64,000 bases of DNA from Dechloromonas sp. CZR5 (GTDB lineage Bacteria > Pseudomonadota > Gammaproteobacteria > Burkholderiales > Rhodocyclaceae), in assembly GCF_008711155.1 (NCBI RefSeq), contig NZ_VUYQ01000006.1, positions 248,001 through 312,000 on the forward strand, written 5' to 3'. The stretch's first letter is position 1. Every line of letters begins with the position of its first letter. The position numbers were made by a program, and so were the translations under genes. Shown in pieces: positions 5,307 to 19,052 of this stretch. The notes beneath the pieces are model-generated. The model worked only from the letters and a program-made list of their open reading frames with translations, was not told the DNA's origin and made no database searches.

Positions 5307-6546
5307 AGCGCAGGGCCTCCGCCGGATTGACGCGGGAAGCCCGCCAGCTGGGGTAAAGGGTGGCCAGCAAGGCGAGCACGAAGGCGATCAGCGTGACGCC
5401 CCAGACATCGCCCCACTGCAGGTCGGATGGCAGGTCGGAAATGTAATAGACCTCCTTGGACAGGAAATGCACACCGAGCAGGCGCTCGATGAAGGGCACC
5501 ACCACATCGATATTCAGCGCCAGTGCCACGCCGCCGGCGATCCCGAGGCCCAGCCCGATGAAGCCGACCAGCGCCCCCTGGATCACGAATACCGCCATGA
5601 TCGACAAGGGCCGCGCGCCCAGCGTGCGCAGGATGGCGATGTCGGCCTGCTTGTCGGTTACCGCCATGACCAGCGTCGATACCAGGTTGAAGGCGGCCAC
5701 TGCAACAATCAGCGAGAGGATGATGAACATCATGTTCTTCTCGATCTGCACGGCACGGAAGAAATTGGCGTGGCTCTTGGTCCAGTCGTTCAGGTAGGCG
5801 TCGGCGTCGATGTAGCGGACCAGTTCGCGGGCGATACGCGGCGCCTGGAACAGGTCGTCGACCTTGAGCCGCACGCCGGTCACCCGGTCGTCCATCTGGT
5901 AGAGCCTTTGCGCATCCTCAAGGTTGATCAGCGCCAGCCCGGAATCGTATTCGTACATGCCGACCTCGAAGATGCCGACCACACGGAACGACTTCAGGCG
6001 CGGCACCACGCCGGCCGGTGTCACCGTGCCCTGCGGCGCGATCAGCGTCACCTTGTCGCCGGTGAAGACGCGCAGCGAGCGAGCCAGGTCGGCACCGAGC
6101 ACGACGCCGAACTCGCCCGGACGCAGGTCGTCCAGGCTGCCGCTCTGGATGGTCTTGCGGAAATCGGCGACCTTGTCCTCCTGGTCGGGCAGGATGCCGC
6201 GCACGATGGTGCCCTTGACCCCCCCATCGACACTGAACATGCCCTGCGACTGCACGAAAGGGGCTGTCGCACGAACTTCCGGATGCTTCATCGCCTGCTC
6301 GGCAATCGCCGGCCAGCCGGTCAGCTCGCCATTGATCCCGGTGATCTGGATATGCGAAGCCACGCCGAGGATGCGCGTGCGCAATTCCTTCTGGAAGCCG
6401 TTCATCACCGAGAGGACGACGATCAGCGCGGCCACGCCGAGCCCGATACCGAGCATCGAGATCAACGAAATGAATGAAATGAAATGGTTGCGTCGCTTGG
6501 CCCGCGTATAGCGCAGGCCGATCAACAGTTCGTAGGGCAATGCCAT
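5299..6546 (-). CDS. lolC: Lipoprotein-releasing system permease, LolC/LolE family
   Basis: Membrane subunit (415 aa from the ATG at 6546; an ATG at 6576 would add ten residues that do not fit the family). The N-terminus ([19 protein letters not shown]) is typical of LolC/E, followed by membrane segment 1, a large periplasmic MacB-core-like domain and three C-terminal membrane segments forming the FtsX domain. It pairs with LolD. Only one permease gene is present here, where enteric bacteria carry separate lolC and lolE; this suggests a homodimeric LolF-type exporter. The second copy could lie elsewhere in the genome. No clear Shine-Dalgarno precedes either candidate start. Confidence 0.92.
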
Positions 6547-6626: not shown

Positions 6627-7661
6627 GTGCACCTCACCCTGCTTGTCCCCGAACTGATCTGGCCTGAACCGAACGACCAACTGACCCTCGGGAAGCTCTC
6701 GGTGCCGGGCTTCGAATGGCTCGCCAGCCGCGCCCGCTTCGACCGCCAGCCCAAACAGGCTTTTGAAATCACCCTCGCCCGGCTGTTCGGCACCGACGAT
6801 ATGCCGTTCGCCCCCCTGCGCCTGCTCGGCGAATCGCCGGACGATGCGGCGCGCGACGGCCACTGGCTGTGCGCCGACCCGGTCCACCTGCGTTTTCACC
6901 ACGAACGCATCGTGCTCGCCGATGCCGGCGCCTTCGATGTCGACGACGACGAAGCGATTGCCCTCGTCGGTGCGCTGAACGAAACCTTTGCCGACGTCGG
7001 ACGCTTTCACGTCGCCACCTCGTGCCGCTGGTATCTGCGCCTGAACGAAGCGGTCGACCACCCGGCCGAACCGCTGTCGACCATCGCCGGCCGGCGCATG
7101 GATGGCGAACTGTCCGGCAAGGAAAGCCGCCTCACCCGCTGGCTGAACGAGGTGCAGATGTTCCTGCACGGCCACCCGGTCAACGCCAGACGCCAGGCCG
7201 AGGGCAAGCCGGCCATCAACAGCCTGTGGCTATGGGGAGGCGGCACCCTGCCCGTGCTGCAGGCCGCCGCCTGGTCGGCCGTATCGACAAGCAACCCGCT
7301 GGCAACCGGACTGGCCCTGGCATCGGGCATCCCCGCCAGGCCGCTGCCGGCCAACCTGGCCGAACTGCTTCAAGGTGCCGCCGGCGACCGCCAGCTGGTC
7401 GTACTCGACGCCCTGCTGCCGCCCGTGCTGTACGAGGATGGCGAAGGCTGGAAGCGTGCCTGGCAGGCGCTGGACAGCAACTGGTTCGCCCCGCTGCAAG
7501 GCGCCGCGGGCCGCCGCGTCACCAGCCTGAGCATCGTCGCGCCGACCGTTTACGGCTTGCTGACCTGGACCCTGCACGCCACGGATCGCTGGAAATTCTG
7601 GCGCCGCAGCCGTCCGCTGGCCTCTCTCGCCACGGCACTGGCCTCGGGAGAAACGCCATGA
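6627..7661 (+). CDS. RpfE-type conserved protein upstream of recJ
   Basis: Protein of 344 aa if translation begins at the GTG at 6627, just before LTLLVPELIWPEP. An in-frame ATG at 6540 would overlap the divergent lolC gene and add residues that look non-coding. It has no membrane segment, and the middle (LWLWGGGTLP) resembles the family annotated in Xanthomonas and betaproteobacteria as regulatory protein RpfE. Members commonly sit directly before recJ, as here, with a 4-base ATGA overlap. The biochemical role of the family is not established to my knowledge. Confidence 0.75.
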   Translation: MHLTLLVPELIWPEPNDQLTLGKLSVPGFEWLASRARFDRQPKQAFEITLARLFGTDDMPFAPLRLLGESPDDAARDGHWLCADPVHLRFHHERIVLADAGAFDVDDDEAIALVGALNETFADVGRFHVATSCRWYLRLNEAVDHPAEPLSTIAGRRMDGELSGKESRLTRWLNEVQMFLHGHPVNARRQAEGKPAINSLWLWGGGTLPVLQAAAWSAVSTSNPLATGLALASGIPARPLPANLAELLQGAAGDRQLVVLDALLPPVLYEDGEGWKRAWQALDSNWFAPLQGAAGRRVTSLSIVAPTVYGLLTWTLHATDRWKFWRRSRPLASLATALASGETP

Positions 7662-9346
7662 CCCGGATCACCACCCGCAGCGCGGCACCACGCGTCGTCT
7701 GGCAACTGGAGCAGCAAGGCCTGCACCCGCTGCTCGCCCGCCTTTACGCCGCACGCGGCATCAAGGACAAGGCCGAACTCGACTACGAACTGAAGTCGCT
7801 GATCCCGCCGGCCGCCCTGACCCATGCCGGCGACGCCGCGCAACTGCTGGCCGACGCCATCGAGGCCGAGGCCAAACTGCTGATCATCGGCGACTACGAT
7901 TGCGACGGCGCCACCGCCACGGCGGTCGGCATGCGCGCCCTGAAGGCGCTCGGCGCCGATGTCGATTTCCTGCTCCCCGACCGCTTCAAGCTCGGTTACG
8001 GCCTGTCGCCGGAAATCGTGGACGTCGCCGCCGAGCAGTCGCCGGACCTGATCATCACCGTCGACAACGGCATCGCCAGCCTGGAAGGCGTCGCCCGCGC
8101 CCAGCAGCACGGCATCGCCACGCTGATCACTGACCACCACCTGCCGGGCGACACGCTGCCCGACGCCGAATGCATCGTGAATCCCAACCAACCCGGCTGC
8201 GATTTCCCGTCCAAGTGCATAGCCGGCGTCGGCGTCATGTTCTACGTCATGCTCGCCCTGCGCGCCGAACTGCGCGAACGGGGATACTTTTCCGAACGCC
8301 CGGAGCCTAATTTCGCCAACCTGCTCGACCTCGTCGCTCTGGGCACCGTCGCCGACGTGGTCAAGCTCGACCGCAACAACCGCATCCTGGTCAGCCAGGG
8401 CCTCAAGCGCATGCGCGCCGGCCAGATGCAACCGGGCATCGCCGCCCTGTTCAAGGCCGCCGGCCGCGACCCGAAGCGCGCCACCGCCTTCGACCTCGGT
8501 TTCCTGCTCGGCCCGCGCCTCAATGCCGCCGGCCGCCTGGCCGACATGCGCCTCGGGGTCGAATGCCTGTTAACGGACGATCCAGCACGCGCCCTGACCA
8601 TCGCGCAGCAACTCGACAATTTCAATCGCGAACGGCGCGAAATCGAAGCTGGCATGCAGGAACAGGCGCTGCACCTGCTCGACAGCATGGAGGTGGACGG
8701 CACGGCTGCCGGCATCGCGCTCTATGACGAAAGCTGGCACGAAGGCGTGGTCGGCATCCTCGCCTCGCGCATCAAGGACAGGCTGCATCGCCCGGTATTC
8801 GCCTTCGCGCCCGGCGAAGGGGGAATCATCAAGGGCTCCGGCCGCTCCATTCCCGGCCTCCACCTGCGCGACGCGCTCGATCTGGTCGCCAAGCGCCAGC
8901 CGGGCCTGCTGGTGCGCTTCGGCGGCCACGCCATGGCGGCCGGCGCCACCTTGCGCGAAGGCGATTTCGAACGCTTCAACGAGACCTTCGCCGCCGTCGC
9001 CGGAGAACTGCTCGACCCCGCCGACCTGACCCGCACGCTGGAAACCGACGGCAACCTCGAAGGCGGTTACCTGTCGCTGGAAGCCGCCCGCCTGCTGGAA
9101 AACGAAATCTGGGGCCAGGGCTTCCCCGCGCCGCTGTTCGTCGACGAGTTCGATGTCGAACAGCAGCGCGTGCTCAAGGAAAAGCATCTCAAGCTGCGCC
9201 TGCGCAAGGGCAACAGTCGCATCGACGCCATCCAGTTCAATTTCAGCACCCAGCCCGGTGGCCACACGCGGGCCGCCTACCGGCTGGCGATCAACGAATA
9301 CATGGGCGTCGAAAGCCCGCAGCTGATGGTCGAGTATCTGGAGTAA
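7658..9346 (+). CDS. recJ: Single-stranded-DNA-specific exonuclease RecJ
   Basis: 5'-to-3' single-strand exonuclease (562 aa) of the RecF recombination pathway, mismatch repair and base-excision repair. The DHH phosphoesterase signature is complete: GDYDCDG at 78-84, DNG near 136-138, DHH at 159-161, and the later GRLADMRLG and RFGGHAMAAG segments of the DHHA1 domain. A C-terminal OB-like region follows. The ATG overlaps the rpfE stop (ATGA), so the two genes are co-translated. Length matches the family. Confidence 0.96.
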   Translation: MTRITTRSAAPRVVWQLEQQGLHPLLARLYAARGIKDKAELDYELKSLIPPAALTHAGDAAQLLADAIEAEAKLLIIGDYDCDGATATAVGMRALKALGADVDFLLPDRFKLGYGLSPEIVDVAAEQSPDLIITVDNGIASLEGVARAQQHGIATLITDHHLPGDTLPDAECIVNPNQPGCDFPSKCIAGVGVMFYVMLALRAELRERGYFSERPEPNFANLLDLVALGTVADVVKLDRNNRILVSQGLKRMRAGQMQPGIAALFKAAGRDPKRATAFDLGFLLGPRLNAAGRLADMRLGVECLLTDDPARALTIAQQLDNFNRERREIEAGMQEQALHLLDSMEVDGTAAGIALYDESWHEGVVGILASRIKDRLHRPVFAFAPGEGGIIKGSGRSIPGLHLRDALDLVAKRQPGLLVRFGGHAMAAGATLREGDFERFNETFAAVAGELLDPADLTRTLETDGNLEGGYLSLEAARLLENEIWGQGFPAPLFVDEFDVEQQRVLKEKHLKLRLRKGNSRIDAIQFNFSTQPGGHTRAAYRLAINEYMGVESPQLMVEYLE

Positions 9347-9401
9347 AGCAGGCCAGGAGAAGGCAAGCCCGCCACCGCCCCTCTCCTCGCCGCCCGTCCG
9401 C

Positions 9402-9935
9402 TCAATTACCGCCGGCGGCGTCGGGAAATACGAAATCGACGCGGCGCAACAAGCGCCAGCATTCGGACGAGCGGCAGTTGGTCGACTTAACCGCGCCACC
9501 GACCTGCCTTCTGATCTGATAGGTACTGACGCCCTGCTTTTTCAGCGCATTGGCAACGGCACCGATGCGCGCATCGGCAATCGCCAGATTGAAGGAACGG
9601 CTGCCTTGATTGGCGGCGTAACCAACCAGGGTCACGGACTGCCGCCGGTCGTTCAACAGGCGACCGGCCAGCAGCTTGAGCTTGCCTCGCTCGGATGACG
9701 CGATGGCACTGGAGCCCGGCGAAAAAAAGACGCTCTCCTCCGGATTGACCGGCAAGCCCTCGCTTTTCTCCACCGCCTTCGGTTTGTCCTGCGCACCCTG
9801 CCCGGCCCGAGCCTCGACCTGGGGTACCGGCGCGCCCGATGCACCCGGCGTGACCGGCGGCGTTTCCGGCCGGGGTGTGGTGGCACAAGCGGCGAGCAGC
9901 GTGACCAGAAGCGGGATGGCGATGCGCCGTACCAT
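9402..9935 (-). CDS. OmpA-like lipoprotein, co-transcribed with marR
   Basis: Predicted outer-membrane lipoprotein of 177 aa. The start is the ATG at 9935: it has a GGAG 7 bases upstream and gives a short basic leader with lipobox LLAAC (Cys at about residue 16). A Pro/Ala-rich linker (to about 60) is followed by an OmpA C-terminal-like domain whose central segment VTLVGYAANQGSRSFN keeps the fold pattern. The Asp that usually contacts diaminopimelate (in the G-H-T-D position) appears replaced by Ala, while the downstream Arg of ADARIG remains. A pair of cysteines (NCRSSEC) near the C-terminus may form a disulphide. It starts 5 bases after the marR stop codon, so the two form an operon. Confidence 0.8.
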   Translation of the reverse strand: MVRRIAIPLLVTLLAACATTPRPETPPVTPGASGAPVPQVEARAGQGAQDKPKAVEKSEGLPVNPEESVFFSPGSSAIASSERGKLKLLAGRLLNDRRQSVTLVGYAANQGSRSFNLAIADARIGAVANALKKQGVSTYQIRRQVGGAVKSTNCRSSECWRLLRRVDFVFPDAAGGN

Positions 9936-9939
9936 TCGT

Positions 9940-10431
9940 CTACTCCGCATCGCGCACCATGTCGGCCAGGGGAACCCGCGCAAACTGGTCGTCGCTATCC
10001 TGCAGATGCTTGATCAGTTCAGCTAGATTTATATTCAATGTTTTCAAGGCAACCTCTGGCAGGCTGGCGAGCGCCGCCGGCAGCACACCTTCGGCCGGGC
10101 CCGGCAGGCGCGCGATAAGTGCCTGGCCAGACGAGGCGAGGACCAGGCCAACCCGGCGCCGATCGGTTGCCGCCTTCTGCCTTTCCAGATAACCCAGACC
10201 GACCAGCCTTTCAACCAGCTGGCTGCAGGTCGACTGATGTATGCCCAGTCGCTGCGCCAGCTCGGTGACACCGATGGCCGGGGTGCGCTCGACCTCCTGG
10301 AGAATCCACATCTGGCTGCCCGGCAGGCCGCAACACTGCTCGATGAGGCGGAAATACTGCCGCATGGTGCCGTAGATGACACGAAATTGCTGCAGCACGT
10401 CGAGCGGCAGACTGGGAGTAGAAATTTTCAT
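9940..10431 (-). CDS. MarR-family transcriptional regulator
   Basis: Winged-helix repressor of 163 aa. The recognition region (VTELAQRLGIHQSTCSQL, about 55-72) and wing (KAATDRRRVGLVL) are clear. It is divergent from the antiporter operon and directly upstream of the OmpA-like lipoprotein. Its own promoter (-35 TTGTAA, 17-base spacer, -10 TATAAT) overlaps the opposing one, so one bound repressor could control both directions; that is inference. MarR proteins typically respond to small aromatic or oxidising effectors, but none can be named here. Confidence 0.9.
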   Translation of the reverse strand: MKISTPSLPLDVLQQFRVIYGTMRQYFRLIEQCCGLPGSQMWILQEVERTPAIGVTELAQRLGIHQSTCSQLVERLVGLGYLERQKAATDRRRVGLVLASSGQALIARLPGPAEGVLPAALASLPEVALKTLNINLAELIKHLQDSDDQFARVPLADMVRDAE

Positions 10432-10436
10432 AAAAA

Positions 10437-10486
10437 TTGCACGAAACGGGTGCGAGAATTATATTTATAACCAATGTAGTTTACAA
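10437..10486. promoter_or_regulatory. Overlapping divergent promoters and possible MarR operator
   Basis: On the minus strand, TTGTAA (10481-10486) and TATAAT (10458-10463) are separated by exactly 17 bases and point to marR. On the plus strand, TTGCAC (10437-10442) and TATATT (10460-10465), also 17 apart, point to the antiporter gene. The two -10 boxes overlap at an inverted repeat TTATA-N2-TATAA (10459-10470). This geometry suits an autoregulated MarR repressor; binding is inferred. Confidence 0.55.
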
Positions 10487-10550: not shown

Positions 10551-11762
10551 ATGTTGAATTCCATACAGCTCTTCGGTTTCGTCCTGCTTGGCGGCCTGCT
10601 CGCCGGCGAAACCGCGCGCCGGCTGGCCAGGCTGCCGAGAACGACGGGCTATGTGTTGTTCGGCCTCCTGGTCGGACAGAGCGGCAGCAACTGGGTAACG
10701 CCGCTGCATGTCGAGTCGGCCCAGTTGTTCATCGACCTCGCCCTCGGCCTGATCCTGTTCGAGCTCGGTTATCTGGTACCGGCCGTGAGCCGGACGGAAC
10801 GCCTGGCCCGCCTGCGGGCCGGAACCGCCGTCGCCCTCGCCTCCGGGGGGCTGCTTTTCGCCGGGTTCGTGGTCAACGCGGTACCGGCCACCGTGGCGCT
10901 TTTCGCGGCCGCGCTGTGCCTGGCCACCTCGCCAGCCATCACCATCGCCACCTGCAGCGATGTCGGTGCCCGGGGCGAGCGTACGGGCCTGCTCTACTCG
11001 CTGGTCGCCATCAACGGCGTCATCGCCTTCGCCATCGTCATGCTCACCCTTCCCTTCCTCGACGACGGCCAGTCCCTCGGCACCTTCGGACGCCTGAGCA
11101 CAGGGCTCGGCAGCATTGTCGGCTCTTTCCTGCTCGGCGGGGCGTGCGCCGCAATCGTCCTGCTCGGAGCGGAGCGCCTCGAGCGCCAGGCCGAACACCA
11201 GCACCTGCTGATTCTCGGCACCATCGTGCTCGGCGTCGGCACCGCGATCTATCTCGACATCTCGGTCTTCCTGCCCATGCTCGTCTTCGGCGCCATGGTC
11301 AGGGCAATCGACCACGACAACAAGGTAGTCGCCATCCGCATCGCGAGCGACGCCCGGGTCTTTCTGGTCATCACCTTCGTCCTGGCCGGGGCGGCGCTCG
11401 ATATCGGCCACCTGTTTTCCTATTGGCGCGAAGCACTGCTGATTTCGCTGGTGCGTTTTGTCGGGCAATGGGCTGCCGTCTGGCAATACCGCAAGAGGCT
11501 GGCCCTGAACCCGCGCGAATGCCTGTTGTTCAGCATCGGCCTGCAGCCGATGTCGAGCGTCGCGCTGGTGCTGCTGGTCAACATGCAGATGCTGCACAAC
11601 CAGATGAGCCCGGACCTGATCGGCATGCTGATGGCGACCATCCTGCTCATGCAACTGCTCGGCCCGCTGGCCACGCAAACGGCCATCCTCGGCTTCGGAG
11701 AGGCGACACGGCTGCAGCCCGCCGCCGAGCCGCCGGCAAACCATCGACAAGGAGTCTCATGA
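10551..11762 (+). CDS. CPA2-family cation:proton antiporter-like protein (first copy)
   Basis: Integral membrane protein of 403 aa, almost entirely hydrophobic helices (about 12), belonging to the Kef/CPA2 group. There is no RCK/TrkA nucleotide-binding domain at the C-terminus, unlike KefB/KefC. The start is the ATG at 10551; upstream codons in frame are intergenic. By eye, the segment equivalent to the ion-binding Gln-Asp of KefC reads Asn-Gly (SLVAINGVIAF), so the usual acidic residue seems absent. The stop overlaps the ATG of the next gene. First gene of a five-gene run. Confidence 0.85.
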   Translation: MLNSIQLFGFVLLGGLLAGETARRLARLPRTTGYVLFGLLVGQSGSNWVTPLHVESAQLFIDLALGLILFELGYLVPAVSRTERLARLRAGTAVALASGGLLFAGFVVNAVPATVALFAAALCLATSPAITIATCSDVGARGERTGLLYSLVAINGVIAFAIVMLTLPFLDDGQSLGTFGRLSTGLGSIVGSFLLGGACAAIVLLGAERLERQAEHQHLLILGTIVLGVGTAIYLDISVFLPMLVFGAMVRAIDHDNKVVAIRIASDARVFLVITFVLAGAALDIGHLFSYWREALLISLVRFVGQWAAVWQYRKRLALNPRECLLFSIGLQPMSSVALVLLVNMQMLHNQMSPDLIGMLMATILLMQLLGPLATQTAILGFGEATRLQPAAEPPANHRQGVS

Positions 11763-12544
11763 TGGCAAGACGTCCCTTACGTATCGGCCTCTCGGCCCGG
11801 ATCTACCACCCGCTGCCCGGTGCGACCGGCCTGCAATCCAAGTCGCTGCACTACCTCGAGCAGTCGGTTGCCCACTGGGTCATGTCGCGCGAAGTCATGG
11901 TCTTCATGATTCCCTCGGTGAGCGGCGATGGCCTGGTTCATCGGAGCAGCATCCGTCTCTCCGATTATCCGCAGCATCTCGACGGCCTCGTCCTGCAAGG
12001 CGGCGCCGACATCAGCCCGCAGTCCTACGGCGAGGAGCCGCTGCAGCCCGAGTGGGCGGGCGACCGCCTGCGCGACGCCTACGAGATGGAACTGCTGCAC
12101 GAATTCATGGAAGCCGGCAAGCCGGTGCTCGGCATCTGCCGTGGCGCCCAGCTGATCAACGTCGCGCTCGGCGGTACGCTGTACCAGGATATCGCCACGC
12201 AGTACGAACGCCCCGACATCCACGTCCATGACGATTACGACAAGCACGCCCACGCCGTCGCCTGGGAGGCGGGTGGCAGCCTGGCCAAGCTCTATACCGA
12301 ACAGGCCGGCGGGCGGGTGGTCTCCATTCACCACCAGGCGATCAGGGCCGTCGGCAAGGGCTTGCGGATCGAGGCGCGCAGCACCGAGGACGGACTGATC
12401 GAAGCCATTCGCCTCGATGCCAAATCCTATGTACTCGGCCTGCAGTGGCACCCGGAATTCCACCCGCCGGGCAGCCCGGACCTGCTGAACTGCACGCCTA
12501 TCCTCGACGAATTCCTCAACGCCGCGCGAGGCCGGCGATGGTGA
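11759..12544 (+). CDS. Class I glutamine amidotransferase, gamma-glutamyl-GABA hydrolase type (PuuD-like)
   Basis: Predicted cytoplasmic gamma-glutamyl hydrolase of 261 aa (peptidase C26 family). The nucleophile elbow GICRGAQ places the catalytic Cys at about 127, and QWHPEFH supplies the His and Glu. A GGAG lies 5 bases before the first of two adjacent ATGs. PuuD cleaves gamma-glutamyl-GABA; other members act on folylpoly-glutamate or glutathione-related compounds, so the substrate is open. It is translationally coupled to the first antiporter. Sitting between two antiporters and just upstream of a gamma-glutamyl ligase-type gene, it suggests a role in turnover of a gamma-glutamyl compound. 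Confidence 0.88.
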   Translation: MMARRPLRIGLSARIYHPLPGATGLQSKSLHYLEQSVAHWVMSREVMVFMIPSVSGDGLVHRSSIRLSDYPQHLDGLVLQGGADISPQSYGEEPLQPEWAGDRLRDAYEMELLHEFMEAGKPVLGICRGAQLINVALGGTLYQDIATQYERPDIHVHDDYDKHAHAVAWEAGGSLAKLYTEQAGGRVVSIHHQAIRAVGKGLRIEARSTEDGLIEAIRLDAKSYVLGLQWHPEFHPPGSPDLLNCTPILDEFLNAARGRRW

Positions 12545-12587
12545 GGTCGGGACTGCCCATGGGGTGGCGCACGATGGGAGGGCGGAG

Positions 12588-13856
12588 ATGATCGAACGCC
12601 TCCTCGCTCCGCTGCGCAACGTCTGGGACAGCCTGGTCGAGCGCCTGTTCTTCCTGCCGCCCTTTCCGGAAAGCATCGACTCGCTGGCCCTGTTCAGCCT
12701 GCTGCTGGTCGTCGGACTGCTTATCGGCGAATGGCTGCACGCCCACGCCCGCTGGCCCAAGGTCATCGGCTACGTGCTGGCCGGCATCGTATTCGGGCCA
12801 TCGGCGCTGGGCTGGATCAGCATCGAGGCGCTGGCCCAGGCACGGCCGATTGCCGATGCGGCGCTCGGCCTGCTGATGCTGGAGGTCGGCCGGCGTCTCG
12901 AACTGAAATGGTTGTGGGGCAATGCGGCCTTGCTGCGCGGCACGCTGGCCGACATTTCGCTCTCTTTTGTGCTGATCTTCGCCTTCGCACTCTGGCTGGT
13001 CGGCCTGTCGCCGGCCTGGGCGGCTGCCACCGCGGCCGTCACCATGGCCTCGGCGCCGGCCGTCGTCCTGCTGACCATCGAGGAGTCGAGGGCGCAGGGG
13101 CAGGTCACCGAGCGCATCATCCTGCATACCGCTATCGGTTCGGCCGCTTCCTTCGTCGCTTTTGCCGTCGTCCTTGGCATCGTGCATGCCGAATTGAGCG
13201 CGGACTGGCTGAACGCCATCCTGCATCCGCTCTGGGTAGTAGCCGGGGCGCTGCTCGTCGGCGGCCTCGGCGCCTGGCTGGCGCTGCGCATCGCCCGCAC
13301 CCTGCCCAAGCGTTCGCTGGCCCAGGTTTTCGTACTCATCGCCTGCGCCTTGCTCGCCGTGGGCATCGCCCGCATGCTGGCCGTACCGGTCTTCCTGACC
13401 CTTTTCCTGATGGGCGTGCTGCTCGCTGCAACCGACCGACAGCAGACGCTGCGCTATACCGACCTGCCGGAAGGCCACTGGCTGCTCGCCATCGTGCTTT
13501 TCGTCATCGTCGGCGCCTCCTTGCCATGGCAGGACTTCACCTGGGTGGCCGGCCTGCAGGCACTCGGCCTGCTGCTCGTCCGTGCCACCGCCAAGGCCGC
13601 AGCCCTGGCCTGGTCGGGCGGCAGCCTGCCGCTGTCCAAGCGCTTGCTGGTCGGCGTCGGCATCCAGCCCCTGTCGGCCACGGCCGTGTTCATGGCGTAT
13701 GAGATAGCCGGCCTTTATCCGGAAGTCGGACGCTCCGCACTGACCCTGCCGCTGTTCGCGGCGGCGATGATGGAACTGATCGGCCCGGCGCTCTGCCGCC
13801 TGGCCTTGAGCCGCTCCGGCGAATGCGGCGCCGGCGACAAGGGAGGTATCGCATGA
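12588..13856 (+). CDS. CPA2-family cation:proton antiporter-like protein (second copy)
   Basis: Membrane protein of 422 aa, related to but clearly diverged from the first antiporter. The start is the ATG at 12588, 5 bases after GGGAGG. Roughly 12 membrane helices occupy residues 35-410; there is no cytoplasmic regulatory domain. The helix that carries the ion-binding Asp in KefC reads HTAIGSAASF here, with no acid. The region GYVLAGIVFGPSALGW matches the first broken helix of the family. The stop codon overlaps the ATG of the downstream ligase gene. The pair may work as a heterodimer or have separate cargoes. Confidence 0.85.
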   Translation: MIERLLAPLRNVWDSLVERLFFLPPFPESIDSLALFSLLLVVGLLIGEWLHAHARWPKVIGYVLAGIVFGPSALGWISIEALAQARPIADAALGLLMLEVGRRLELKWLWGNAALLRGTLADISLSFVLIFAFALWLVGLSPAWAAATAAVTMASAPAVVLLTIEESRAQGQVTERIILHTAIGSAASFVAFAVVLGIVHAELSADWLNAILHPLWVVAGALLVGGLGAWLALRIARTLPKRSLAQVFVLIACALLAVGIARMLAVPVFLTLFLMGVLLAATDRQQTLRYTDLPEGHWLLAIVLFVIVGASLPWQDFTWVAGLQALGLLLVRATAKAAALAWSGGSLPLSKRLLVGVGIQPLSATAVFMAYEIAGLYPEVGRSALTLPLFAAAMMELIGPALCRLALSRSGECGAGDKGGIA

Positions 13857-14977
13857 GCGACAAGGGACTGGAAAACTTCAAGGAGAGCGCACCGCTGTCG
13901 CTCGGTGTCGAACTCGAGCTGCAACTCGTTTCCCGACGCGATTTCGATCTGACGCGCGGCGCCACCGACCTACTCGACAGCCTCGATTACGACGGACGCT
14001 TCGGTGAAATCAAGCTGGAAATCACCGAAAGCATGATCGAGATCAGCACCCAGGCGCAATTGACTGTCGACGGCATCGCCGCCGACCTGGCCGGCCTGCG
14101 CGACACGCTGCGTCAGCACGGCGAACGCAACAACATCGGCATCTGCGGCGGCGGCACCCACCCCTTCCATCACTGGCCGGAGCGGCGTATCTGCCCGGGC
14201 GAGCGCTTCAACGGCCTGTACCAGCGCTACGGCTACCTGGCCAAGCAATTCACCGTCTTCGGGCAGCATATCCACGTCGGCTGCACCTCGGCCGACGAAG
14301 CCATCTGGCTGACCCAGGCGCTCGGCGTCCATGTGCCGGCCTTCATCGCCCTGTCAGCCTCGTCGCCCTTTGTCGACGGCGTGGACAGCCTCTACCAGTC
14401 GGCCCGTCTCAACGCGGTATCGGCCTTCCCGCTCAGCGGACAGTGCCCGCCGCTGAACGACTGGCCGGATTTCTGCCGGCATTTCGAATTCCTGCAGGCC
14501 TGCGGCATTGCGCAAGGCATCAAGGACTTGTACTGGGATGTGCGGCCGAAGCCCGAGTTCGGCACGGTCGAGATTCGCGTCTGCGACACCCCGCTCTCCA
14601 TCGAGCAGGCCATCGCCCTGGCCGCCTTCGCCCAGTCGCTGTCGCGCTGGCTGTTGCGCACCCGACCGGCGCTACAGACCGAGAGGCAGGCCCATGTCGC
14701 CCGCTATAACAAGTTCCAGGCTTGCCGCTACGGTCTGGATGCGGAAATTTCCGATCCGTCCGGCCTTTGCCGGCAGCCGCTGCGACAGACCCTGACACCG
14801 CTGCTCGAAGCGATTTCCGAAGACGCCGGTGAACTCGGCTGTCTGCATTGGCTGAGTCCGCTAAAAAACATGCTTGCCGGAGGAACTGGCGATGCCGCCT
14901 GGCTGCGCGAGCGCTTCCGCCAGCATGGCAACCTGAATGATGTGGTGCGCGAAACCGGCGAACGCCTGATGCGCTGA
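13853..14977 (+). CDS. Carboxylate-amine ligase, GCS2/YbdK family
   Basis: ATP-dependent gamma-glutamyl ligase-type enzyme (374 aa) of glutamate-cysteine ligase family 2. Visible landmarks are LGVELELQLV near the N-terminus (substrate and metal-binding glutamates), KLEITESMIEIST, GGGTHPF, GQHIHVG and TVEIRVCDTP. E. coli YbdK has weak glutamate-cysteine ligase activity in vitro; the physiological substrates of most members are unknown. The ATG at 13853 has GGGAGG 6 bases upstream and overlaps the antiporter stop (ATGA). Chemically it is the reverse partner of the upstream gamma-glutamyl hydrolase. Confidence 0.9.
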   Translation: MSDKGLENFKESAPLSLGVELELQLVSRRDFDLTRGATDLLDSLDYDGRFGEIKLEITESMIEISTQAQLTVDGIAADLAGLRDTLRQHGERNNIGICGGGTHPFHHWPERRICPGERFNGLYQRYGYLAKQFTVFGQHIHVGCTSADEAIWLTQALGVHVPAFIALSASSPFVDGVDSLYQSARLNAVSAFPLSGQCPPLNDWPDFCRHFEFLQACGIAQGIKDLYWDVRPKPEFGTVEIRVCDTPLSIEQAIALAAFAQSLSRWLLRTRPALQTERQAHVARYNKFQACRYGLDAEISDPSGLCRQPLRQTLTPLLEAISEDAGELGCLHWLSPLKNMLAGGTGDAAWLRERFRQHGNLNDVVRETGERLMR

Positions 14978-15000
14978 ATAACCCGAGATGGAGAATGAAA

Positions 15001-16254
15001 ATGAGTCGCCGCTGGCCAGTTGTCCTGTTCCTGCTCCTGCTGCCGCCGGCAGCCCCGGCGGTGACGCCGAGCTGTCAGTTCGACAAGCTGCCGGCGGGCG
15101 AGCAGAAGCTCGGTCCCTGGATCGATAAACACAACTGGCTGGATATCGAAAACCAGCGCCTGACCCTGCAGTCCGCCAGCACCTTCATGCCGGCCTGGCG
15201 CATGGCGCCTTCCACCGACCGGCCGGCTGCAGCACCGGCCAGCCGGCTGCTGGAAGACCTGCCGGCAGTCGATCCGCTGGATGGCAAGGCGCGCAGCCTG
15301 GGTTTCCTGCTCGACAGCCGGCTGGCGACCGACGGCATCGTCGTGCTGCGCAACGGAAAAATTGTCGCCGAGCGCTACCGCAACGGCTTGGTATATGACC
15401 GGCCGCGCCCGCTGCTCGAGGCCACCCGCCCGTTGCTCAATCTGCTCGGGGCGATGAGCGTCAACCAGGGCAAGCTCGCCACCGACAAATCGGTTTCCCG
15501 CTATATCCCGGCCTTCGCCAACTCGGGCAGCCTGCGCAAGATATCGATTCACCGCCTGCTCGACGGCGACGAACGCCTCGCCTGGAGCCCGGAGGAACTT
15601 GCCGACTGGCGGCAGGCCGCCGGCTGGACCGGGAACGAAACCGGCAAGGGCGTCCGGACCTGGCTTGCCCAGCCGAATCTCTGGGACAAGCCGCTGCGCA
15701 CGGGGCTGGATACCGGCGCCACGGCAACGCCCGAAGACGACCTGCTGGCCTGGGCCCTGGCCGAAAGCAACGGCCGGCCGCTGGCCCGACTCTTCTGCGA
15801 GCAACTGCTGCTCCCCGCCCAGCCGGAGCACGAGGTGCTGTGGCTGAGCGATGCCCAGGGTGTCGAACTGGCGAATGGCCTCAGCCTCTCGCCACGCGAT
15901 TTCGCCAGGCTCGGACAACTGCTCGTCGAGGCGCGCAGCAGCCGCAAGCGGGCCAGGATACCCGGCTGGTTCATCGAAACCCTGCTGGCCTCGTCCGGTA
16001 TCCGTGCAGGCGACATCCAGGGCTTGCCCAAGGGCAGCGAGCGACGCTACGGCTTCGTCCATTTGGGCGGCGCCCCCAATCGCGTCGCCCTCATCGGCAC
16101 GCACGGCACCAGCCTCTACCTGGATTTCGACAAACGCCTCGTCATCGCCAGCTTTGCCAGCTACCCGCAGGCACATACGCCGGCCATGCTGGCCTTGCTC
16201 GAACAGGTCTGGCTGTCCATCGAACGCGGACTGAAACCCACCGGAAAGCGCTGA
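15001..16254 (+). CDS. Beta-lactamase-fold serine-hydrolase homologue lacking catalytic residues
   Basis: Exported protein of 417 aa with a signal peptide (basic start, hydrophobic LFLLLLPPAAPA, predicted cleavage near residue 20). The body follows the layout of class C/6-aminohexanoate-dimer hydrolase proteins: GIVVLRNGKIVAERY, then the position of the S-x-T-K motif, then the HRLLDGDERLAW segment, then the region of the active-site Tyr. At the S-x-T-K position I read EATR, and the usual Tyr-Ser-Ser segment reads LDTGATA, so Ser, Lys and Tyr all appear lost. The second ATG (15001) is chosen because GGAG lies 7 bases upstream; the ATG at 14995 is too close. It follows the ligase by 23 bases and probably belongs to that operon. 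Confidence 0.75.
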   Translation: MSRRWPVVLFLLLLPPAAPAVTPSCQFDKLPAGEQKLGPWIDKHNWLDIENQRLTLQSASTFMPAWRMAPSTDRPAAAPASRLLEDLPAVDPLDGKARSLGFLLDSRLATDGIVVLRNGKIVAERYRNGLVYDRPRPLLEATRPLLNLLGAMSVNQGKLATDKSVSRYIPAFANSGSLRKISIHRLLDGDERLAWSPEELADWRQAAGWTGNETGKGVRTWLAQPNLWDKPLRTGLDTGATATPEDDLLAWALAESNGRPLARLFCEQLLLPAQPEHEVLWLSDAQGVELANGLSLSPRDFARLGQLLVEARSSRKRARIPGWFIETLLASSGIRAGDIQGLPKGSERRYGFVHLGGAPNRVALIGTHGTSLYLDFDKRLVIASFASYPQAHTPAMLALLEQVWLSIERGLKPTGKR

Positions 16255-17475: not shown

Positions 17476-18729
17476 ATGACTCGCCTCTTCGTCTGGCTGA
17501 CCGGCGCGCTGCTCCTGCTCGTGCTGGCCGCCGGCGGCCTGTTTCTGGCGGCGCTGGAGGATGCGCCGCTGGTGGAGCGCGACGAGAACATCTCGCCGGC
17601 TGCCATCGACCAGGCACGCCGGCTGTTCCACACCAACGATCCTCGTCGTCTGCAGCGTGGCGAGGCCCGCCACACCGCAATCCCGGCCACGCTGATCGAC
17701 GAAGGCGTCAACGCCCTGGCCAGTCGCGGCCTGAAAGCACGGGGCGCTTTCATCCTGACCGGGGAAATGGCCGAAATCCGGCTCACTCGCCGCATTCCCC
17801 TGATTCCCGACGGACCTTTCCTCAATCTGAAAGCGAGCATTCGCCCAGGCAGCGGCGAGCCGAAGATCGACACCGCGTCGATCGGGCAGACCCGGATTCC
17901 CCCCGCCGTTCTCGAAGCCCTCCTGAACATCGCCGCCGATGCAAGGGGTTACGGCCCGGAATGGCAACTGGCCCGCAAGGCGGTCCATGAGCTGGCCTTC
18001 GATCCGGCGCACCGACTGGTCATCGTCGGCTATACCTGGGAACCCTCCCTGCTCGACCACGCGCGAGCCATCGCCTTCTCGCCCGACGACCTGGTGCGCA
18101 TTCGCTCCGCCCAGGAATCGCTGGCGGGATATCTCGACCACTACGCGTCGGGCCGGCGCATACCGTTCGCCGGGGTGTTGCAGGCCATGCTGGATGTGAA
18201 CGGCAGCGACCAGCGGGAAAACCGGCGGGCCGCCTTGCTCGTCCTCGGCATTTATCTCGCCGAGAAAAACATCTCGTCGCTGATACCTGAAGCCCGCGGC
18301 TGGCCGCCATTGCGGCCGGTCGTCATGATGCTCGCCGGCCGCAACGACAGTGCCCAGCATTTTGCGGTTTCCGCCATGCTCGCCGCCTGGGCCGGCGAGC
18401 CTGTCGCCGACGCCATCGGCCTGTACAAGGAACTGGCCGATGCCCGCCACGGCAGCGGATTTTCCTTTGCCGACCTGGCCGCCGACCGTGCCGGCACCCG
18501 CTTCGGGGAACTGATCAACCGGCGCGACCAGCGGCTGATCACCTTGTTGAACCGCGAAATCCAAGACCACGACATGGTACCGCCGCTTGGCGATCTGCCG
18601 GAATCGATCAGTGCCATTGCGTTCCAGCGCCGCTTCGGTAGCACGTCCAGTCCCGCCTATCGCCAACTGACAGCCGAAATCGAGCGGCGCCTCGACGGCA
18701 TGCCCCTTTACCAGCCAGCGCAACGATGA
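17476..18729 (+). CDS. Conserved hypothetical membrane-anchored protein
   Basis: Protein of 417 aa with one N-terminal membrane anchor (about residues 5-27) and a long periplasmic-facing region. I recognise no domain with confidence. It is rich in short alpha-helical segments and contains one hydrophobic stretch (RPVVMMLAGRN) near residue 280, with HFAVSAMLAAWAGEP following it. It starts 19 bases after prfB and overlaps the next gene by 4 bases, so it is probably co-transcribed with both. Function unknown. Confidence 0.75.
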   Translation: MTRLFVWLTGALLLLVLAAGGLFLAALEDAPLVERDENISPAAIDQARRLFHTNDPRRLQRGEARHTAIPATLIDEGVNALASRGLKARGAFILTGEMAEIRLTRRIPLIPDGPFLNLKASIRPGSGEPKIDTASIGQTRIPPAVLEALLNIAADARGYGPEWQLARKAVHELAFDPAHRLVIVGYTWEPSLLDHARAIAFSPDDLVRIRSAQESLAGYLDHYASGRRIPFAGVLQAMLDVNGSDQRENRRAALLVLGIYLAEKNISSLIPEARGWPPLRPVVMMLAGRNDSAQHFAVSAMLAAWAGEPVADAIGLYKELADARHGSGFSFADLAADRAGTRFGELINRRDQRLITLLNREIQDHDMVPPLGDLPESISAIAFQRRFGSTSSPAYRQLTAEIERRLDGMPLYQPAQR

Positions 18730-19052
18730 TCGACAATCTGTACTCCGACCTTCCCGCTTCGCCCCGACAGGACGAACTGTTCCGGGAACTGCTCAAGCGC
18801 CCCGGATTGCGTATCGAACGCATCGTCTCCACCGGCCAGGCTAGCCCGAGCGGATTCTGGTACGACCAGCCGGAAGGCGAGTGGGTGCTGCTCCTGCAGG
18901 GTGAGGCGGGAATCCGCTTCGAGGACACAGCGGAAGCGCTGGCGCTGCTACCCGGTGATTTCCTGGAGATCGCCCCGCATCGACGGCATCGGGTGGAATG
19001 GACTCATCCGGACCTGACGACCGTCTGGCTTGCCATCCACTACGCGGCCTGA
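18726..19052 (+). CDS. Small cupin-domain protein
   Basis: A 108-aa single-domain cupin. The beta-barrel pattern is visible: GEWVLLLQGEAGIRF (cupin motif 1, lacking the usual pair of histidines) and LLPGDFLEIAPHRRHRVEW (motif 2 region, His-rich). Metal binding is possible through the HRRHRVEW and TVWLAIHY segments. The ATG overlaps the upstream stop (ATGA). Substrate unknown; small cupins often act as sensors, isomerases or binding proteins. Confidence 0.8.
   Translation: MIDNLYSDLPASPRQDELFRELLKRPGLRIERIVSTGQASPSGFWYDQPEGEWVLLLQGEAGIRFEDTAEALALLPGDFLEIAPHRRHRVEWTHPDLTTVWLAIHYAA

Follow-up and report, generated by a model that had tools for sequence, protein, structure and literature searches.

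Introduction

In the Puu system of Escherichia coli, a transporter, a gamma-glutamyl ligase, and a C26 hydrolase are encoded close together, and the ligase, PuuA, has the glutamine synthetase (GS) fold, not that of YbdK. A ligase and a GAT-like hydrolase also act together in the gamma-glutamylation of aniline, where they hold the gamma-glutamyl amine at a tolerable level, according to the accessible part of the report (PMC11335346). Among cation/proton antiporters (CPAs), the aspartate at position 7 of the motif in transmembrane helix 5 (TM5) is present in 94% of 6537 proteins, and its essentiality has been demonstrated repeatedly (PMC6181914). For KefC, the available portion of PMC11150392 describes a D156N variant with no bound K+ and places the glutathione-binding site in the RCK domain. 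Here, we describe a five-gene operon in a stretch of 64,000 nucleotides of Dechloromonas sp. CZR5 (contig NZ_VUYQ01000006.1, positions 248,001 to 312,000; hereafter, the window), which combines two CPA2-fold membrane proteins with a GCS2/YbdK-family ligase, a C26 hydrolase-type enzyme, and a NylB-like pseudo-hydrolase. Its membrane proteins are classed as cation/proton antiporters by their family model, although the residue that enables cation antiport is missing. The pairing of ligase and membrane protein gives two orphan families, YbdK and the Asp-less CPA2 proteins, a partner each: the substrate of YbdK would name the cargo, and vice versa. No description of this gene set was found among the titles, abstract openings, and passages of open PMC papers that the search covered, subscription papers being outside its scope.

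The operon and the near-fixed pairing of its CPA2 and ligase genes

Five open reading frames (ORFs), all on the plus strand, are present in the ORF list of the window where the initial annotation had placed them:

10551..11762, + strand: CPA2-A, a CPA2-fold membrane protein without an RCK domain, with the TM5 motif N-G and the Lys of TM10 changed to Gln
11759..12544, + strand: C26 gamma-glutamyl hydrolase-type enzyme (PF07722), with the triad Cys127, His231, and Glu233 intact
12588..13856, + strand: CPA2-B, a CPA2-fold membrane protein without an RCK domain, with the TM5 motif G-S, directly coupled to the ligase
13853..14977, + strand: GCS2/YbdK-family carboxylate-amine (gamma-glutamyl) ligase (PF04107, NF010040)
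14995..16254, + strand: NylB/class C beta-lactamase-fold pseudo-hydrolase, borderline to PF00144, with an N-terminal signal-like stretch seen by eye

The 4-base overlaps reported earlier, between CPA2-A and C26 and between CPA2-B and the ligase, were confirmed, and starts at 12588 and 15001 reproduce the reported 43- and 23-base gaps; an upstream GTG at 12564 is a possible alternative start of CPA2-B, as is the ATG at 15001 for the pseudo-hydrolase. Pfam matched CPA2-A (5.6e-21) and CPA2-B (2.4e-25) to PF00999, C26 to PF07722 (1.9e-53), the ligase to PF04107 (6.5e-53), and the pseudo-hydrolase to PF00144 (2.6e-6; 27.3 bits against a cut-off of 27). The ratios of nonsynonymous to synonymous substitution rates (dN/dS) of the five genes, calculated against two relatives, were 0.10–0.45.

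In 121 genomes of the window's family, searched at E <= 1e-30 for the ligase and C26 and at E <= 1e-25 for CPA2-B-like proteins, the ligase gave 47 matches in 44 genomes, C26 was found in 36, and CPA2-B-like proteins were found in 39. A CPA2-fold protein adjoined the ligase in 47/47 of these matches: 40 regions were fetched, 37 of them with a ligase and all 37 with CPA2 beside it, and the remaining ten matches, one from the window itself and nine assessed from their coordinates, were also beside CPA2. In a phylum sample of 349 genomes, in which ligase and CPA2 matches were compared by position, the ligase profile gave 96 matches in 93 genomes, and all 18 of those from the window's order (16 genomes, its own included) had a CPA2 within ~160 bp. 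From at least 585 relatives in a scan of named genomes, the best 80 were retained, so that close ones were sampled; in all of these best 80, which ranged from Dechloromonas, Azonexus, Accumulibacter, and Zoogloea to Duganella, Massilia, Cupriavidus, Polaromonas, and Nitrosospira, a CPA2 gene lay directly upstream on the same strand. In loci without annotation, genes were called with a purpose-built codon model and checked with tblastn, and several loci stop at contig ends. When the unique loci were pooled, with the window excluded, a gene of the CPA2 cluster was next upstream of the ligase in 109/110, and the sole exception (L247), ended by a contig end, retains the last part of a CPA2 gene. 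These 110 are the 116 called ligase genes minus duplicates; L264, the ligase ORF of which was uncalled, is missing from them, yet tblastn shows a CPA2 beside it. Under a strict gap rule, CPA2 stood beside the ligase in 115/118 loci, and the three failures (L149, L155, and L159) are fragmented tblastn matches at which the gene calls place a CPA2-cluster gene beside the ligase. The CPA2–ligase pairing is thus near-fixed in the sampled Burkholderiales-type genomes, and linkage at 47/47, 18/18, and 109/110 rejects a chance neighbourhood.

The initial annotation had suggested a search for genomes carrying all five genes in order. The comparison upheld the CPA2–ligase pair as a core without doing so for all five genes as a generally occurring unit: C26 was found no more than five genes from the ligase in 63/110 unique loci, the pseudo-hydrolase in 22/110, and two CPA2 genes in 14/110. 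The complete five-gene order was found in seven distinct loci, namely the window, L135 (from the same genome as L190), L138, L139, L185 (ended by a contig start), L188 (with one extra gene inside), and L189, whereas the commonest order outside the window's lineage was CPA2, ligase, C26. A second CPA2–ligase cassette lies on contig 1 of the window's own genome (L134, G000:C1:616000-632000, positions 6876–10065), with its C26 gene divergent and its ligase 42% identical to that of the window; the ligase of the closest named relative, a Dechloromonas metagenome-assembled genome (MAG), is 97% identical.

Loss of the cation aspartate from a retained CPA2 fold

Confident structure models of both CPA2 proteins keep the NapA/NhaA-type (NapA/NHA2) fold, broken TM4 and TM11 helices included. 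Meanwhile, the TM5 position-7 aspartate (D157 in NapA, D156 in KefC) was found in 0/133 relatives of the cassette CPA2 proteins and in 6/6 controls, the motif (N/D/Q/E)-D being replaced by N-G in CPA2-A and by G-S in CPA2-B. The 133 are those of 136 cluster members that are 340–480 amino acids (aa) long, some from genomes fetched twice, and they include three proteins without an adjoining ligase (L151, L153, and L162); three cassette proteins of the window's own genome were aligned beside the controls and not counted as controls, and the motifs of KefC, YbaL, and two own Kef/YbaL types were taken by eye from the alignment. Profile alignments with PaNhaP and SOS1 placed TSP opposite TDP and NS opposite ND. 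In the cassette clade, TM10 has Arg in 133/133 and TM3 has Glu in 121/133. An NN-type CPA2 gene additionally adjoins the ligase cassette in L167, from another member of the window's family, and in L259, from an Acidovorax MAG; the match in L167 contained one in-frame stop in the search.

A FastTree tree of 158 proteins, from which L283 and three repeated rows of the window's own genome were omitted, places the 137 Asp-less tips beside 14 free-standing CPA2s, of which 13 retain the position-7 aspartate (12 DD and one ND, the other being NI). The CPA2-A clade, with a support of 1.0, has 13 members, comprising the window's type, L151, and three Zoogloea copies, and all but L151 lie inside a ligase operon (12/13). 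In searches of solved structures, single sequences gave no match for CPA2-A or CPA2-B, and an alignment matched KefC best, at 5.5e-14 for a D156N variant chain and 1.1e-13 for the wild type. A Pfam scan detected no RCK domain in either protein, only PF00999 (403 and 430 aa). What an elevator of the NapA/NHA2 type carries once its aspartate has gone is a question for the CPA field.

The CPA2-fold proteins might no longer be transporters at all, acting instead as membrane receptors that bind a gamma-glutamyl compound and signal, or as a membrane anchor for the ligase. The loss of the proton/cation aspartate fits such a role, as does the presence of a second catalytically dead protein in the operon. 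However, the broken TM4 and TM11 helices and the whole elevator fold are retained in the confident models, and Pfam found no attached signalling domain, so we regard this role as quite unlikely.

Ligase, C26 hydrolase, and their relation to glutathione

The ligase passes the NCBIfam YbdK equivalog NF010040 (469.2 bits against a cut-off of 425) and belongs to the GCS2 family, not the GS family, in Pfam. It matched the YbdK structures 1tt4 (6.5e-91) and 1r8g (8.2e-90) with conserved ligase motifs, and an alignment of 37 sequences shows invariant residues. In the C26 protein, the Cys/His/Glu triad (C127/H231/E233) is invariant in 26/26 aligned sequences, PuuD included. Its identity to PuuD is 31%, and it fails the PuuD equivalog (96.8 bits against a cut-off of 266). 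The C26 slot can be lost, to judge from two relatives: in L191 (Accumulibacter conexus) it is reduced to a 189-bp match at 5471–5659 between both CPA2 genes, and in L192 tblastn found no C26 match of >60 bits between the CPA2 genes. Other genes occur around this slot. A gene of one cluster lies between C26 and CPA2-B in L186 (L186:4982-5737) and L188 (L188:4982-5737), the L186 copy matching DapB (dihydrodipicolinate reductase); in two loci at which no C26 was found there, genes of another single cluster (L152:8278-8766 and L163:8350-8838) overlap the ligase end by 4 bases, and the L152 product is a DUF456 protein.

A separate GshA-type ligase for glutathione synthesis is encoded elsewhere in the genome (TIGR02049), and glutathione synthesis was therefore rejected as the main job of the operon ligase. 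A related view takes the ligase for a second gamma-glutamylcysteine synthetase in an operon that handles cysteine or glutathione precursors. E. coli YbdK was presented as a gamma-glutamyl:cysteine ligase in a title (Lehmann 2004, as cited in the accessible part of PMC2588565), and a glutathione S-transferase cluster of 5 members is found among the neighbours; with a dedicated GshA-type gene present, this view is very unlikely.

The initial annotation had named the membrane proteins antiporters and had considered gating like that of KefB/KefC by glutathione adducts, with a gamma-glutamyl metabolite gating K+ or Na+ antiport. The CPA2 fold, the best solved-structure match to KefC, the adjoining ligase, and ion-transport genes near some cassettes are in line with such gating. 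KefC, though, binds glutathione in its RCK domain and loses K+ in the D156N variant, as given in the part of PMC11150392 that is accessible, whereas the operon proteins have no RCK domain and their clade lacks the binding aspartate in 133/133. Because the aspartate and the RCK domain are missing and GshA is separate, neither antiport nor Kef-style gating is supported; "antiporter" applies as a family name only, and a gamma-glutamyl compound that gates a K+ or Na+ antiporter appears unlikely, the least probable of the explanations considered here.

A conserved pseudo-hydrolase at the end of the operon

The last protein aligns with structures of NylB (6-aminohexanoate-dimer hydrolase), from 3e-16, and the serine and lysine of the SxxK motif of NylB stand opposite E and R in the window protein. 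In the 24 aligned proteins, window included, SxxK is lost in 24/24: every one has R or H in place of the lysine, and only L193 retains the serine. The dN/dS of the pseudo-hydrolase is 0.34 against L189 and 0.45 against L190. With the same motif lost in 24 proteins and dN/dS at these values, simple decay of a dead hydrolase was rejected; the protein, dead by motif as the initial annotation had recognized, is best described as a conserved pseudo-enzyme. At E <= 0.001, it has matches in 14/121 genomes of the family, six of them at E <= 1e-70; other serine hydrolases may account for the weaker matches. Among the best 80 of the at least 585 named-genome relatives, 18 loci carry it, belonging to Dechloromonas, Azonexus, Accumulibacter, Propionivibrio, Zoogloea, and Rhodocyclales, with two named to class or phylum only.

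Upstream regulator, promoter-like site, and other features

Three further features precede the operon:

9402..9983, - strand: OmpA-like gene, after marR; several related loci have a gene of the same cluster
9940..10431, - strand: MarR-family regulator, divergent from the operon (Pfam MarR_2, 1.2e-14; alternative start at 10398)
10437..10475, + strand: conserved promoter/operator-like site upstream of the operon, from motif comparison of relatives

The MarR cluster has 18 genes, window included, and a member is found no more than five genes from the ligase in 14/110 other unique loci, adjoining cassettes regardless of whether their first gene is CPA2-A, C26, or CPA2-B. The site at 10437–10475 is laid out as TTGC(AC), 17 nt, TATATT, and then CCAAT. 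Its core, ATTATATT, is present in 11/12 unique divergent MarR–cassette intergenic regions, window included (12 of the 18 MarR genes were used, one duplicate and five non-divergent genes being omitted), and occurs 12 times on both strands in the whole of those loci (177 kb). The window contains a single copy of the extended pattern, and 100 shuffles gave none (0); a search of the 4.29 Mb genome that tolerated one mismatch likewise gave one occurrence. It fits an operon-ward promoter (TTGCAC, 17 nt, TATATT), which was seen by eye and not reported by the promoter scan, and it is overlapped by an opposing promoter-like match toward marR (10486–10458, - strand) that recurs in 10/12 regions. The site may thus be a promoter, an operator, or both. 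No terminator-like site was found between the operon genes, and the five matches in the region compare with 4.0 expected. Further downstream, a small cupin protein (18726–19052) follows a gene that we take to be prfB from its ORF; it scores 97.6 bits with a Nif11/cupin model, below the cut-off of 159.45.

Proposed function of the operon

The motifs of the ligase and C26 are intact, the aspartate is lost, and the pairing is near-fixed, and on these grounds we propose an organic cargo rather than metal ions. Tentatively, the operon may be a MarR-linked gamma-glutamylation module in which a CPA2-fold carrier moves an organic substrate, not Na+ or K+, and the conjugate is exported. In such a module, the ligase would use ATP to couple glutamate, through its gamma-carboxyl, to X, an amine or amino acid, and the anionic gamma-Glu-X (or X) would be carried by CPA2-B, or by a heterodimer of CPA2-A and CPA2-B, through elevator movement. 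C26 would cleave gamma-Glu-X to X in the cytoplasm, preventing build-up, and the dead NylB-like protein would act in the periplasm by binding this compound or a related amide. X would be tagged and the conjugate excreted under a MarR signal; we favour such export as the most likely direction. The core of the earlier proposal, that one system ties a gamma-glutamyl make-and-break pair to the membrane proteins, is borne out by the CPA2–ligase linkage and by the intact motifs and triad.

The same genes could serve uptake and trapping, with CPA2 importing X, the ligase trapping it as gamma-Glu-X, and C26 releasing it, following the PuuP–PuuA–PuuD logic without oxidation. The three activities adjoin in this manner in E. 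coli puuP-puuA-puuD, and transporter and ligase form the fixed pair here while the hydrolase is optional. On the other hand, no catabolic gene holds a fixed place beside the cassette. Of the non-core neighbour clusters, the 26 commonest were considered and 25 of them annotated from one representative each; the oxidoreductase clusters among them, short-chain dehydrogenase/reductase (SDR; 15 members) and aldehyde dehydrogenase (5 members), are scattered in position. MarR control is also commoner for efflux. Uptake and trapping is therefore somewhat unlikely, though a real possibility.

Several observations weigh against export of a gamma-glutamyl conjugate by a dedicated module. The other 78 GCS2 matches of the phylum sample include none with a CPA2 (E <= 1e-20) within 5 kb (0/78), and E. 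coli ybdK is without CPA2 or hydrolase neighbours of this kind. In 47/110 loci, some of which are ended by contig ends, no C26 was found up to five genes from the ligase, and MarR is limited to the 14/110 loci given above. Among the CPA2 proteins, the sister-clade protein L272 likewise lacks the aspartate; TM10 Arg, tried as an innovation of the cassette clade, was dropped because it is present in 14/14 sister-clade proteins, and the deep nodes of the tree are weakly supported (0.43–0.86). Asp-less CPA2s without a nearby ligase also exist (L151, L153, L162, and L265–L268), so gamma-glutamyl transport alone is insufficient to explain the aspartate loss, which may predate the CPA2–ligase pairing. 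Finally, for part of the range, the wider neighbourhood suggests a link with osmotic stress instead of detoxification. At a distance of no more than six genes from the CPA2–ligase pair, MscS occurs in 10, OtsA in 6, and OtsB in 7 of the 110 loci, mostly on the same strand; combined, they mark 12/110 loci (L147, L149, L155, L159, L173, L207, L209, L211, L217, L219, L228, and L246), which are related and for which the counts have no background rate.

Under an osmolyte reading, gamma-Glu-X would be kept as a compatible solute or counter-anion, removed by C26, and released by the CPA2-fold protein on downshift. The 12 loci just listed are consistent with this, as are cation ATPases near the cassette in 5 loci and other Na+/H+ exchangers in 9 and 4; a cluster with a trehalase-like GH15 member (L149) lies near the cassette in four loci. 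Nevertheless, 98/110 loci are without MscS, OtsA, or OtsB at that distance, the related genomes are not independent, and C26 is absent from many loci. None of MscS, OtsA, OtsB, GH15, cation ATPase, or another Na+/H+ exchanger was detected by Pfam among the window proteins scanned. This reading is, on balance, unlikely, though a live alternative to conjugate export.

Comparison with known systems

The operon, for which export of a gamma-glutamyl conjugate is our preferred reading, can be compared with several described systems. Like Puu of E. coli, it keeps transporter, gamma-glutamyl ligase, and C26 hydrolase close together and shares the C26 triad with PuuD; unlike Puu, whose PuuP is a different type of transporter, an H+ symporter, it is without PuuB and PuuC, and its C26 scores below the PuuD cut-off. 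A Pfam scan of the five operon genes and four window neighbours found no oxidising enzyme, and in other loci the SDR and aldehyde dehydrogenase clusters recur at the scattered positions given above. The aniline and 1-naphthylamine systems (AtdA1/A2 and NpaA1/A2) likewise couple a ligase to a GAT-like hydrolase, which undoes the ligation and limits the level of the conjugate, whereas their ligase is GS-like, a dioxygenase follows, and no CPA2 protein is mentioned in the accessible part of the report (PMC11335346). KefC and KefB differ from the operon CPA2 proteins, which have neither the RCK domain nor the binding aspartate. The animal-NHA-like CPA2 clade also differs: NHA2 has both TM5 aspartates, whereas all 133 proteins of the operon clade lack the one at position 7. 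The second "new CAL" family of Iyer 2008, associated with a GAT-like peptidase, is another ligase family, and the word "antiporter" never occurs in that text. Judged by its protein families, the operon resembles the Puu and aniline systems in its make-and-break logic and is not a member of either, because its ligase belongs to GCS2 and theirs to GS.

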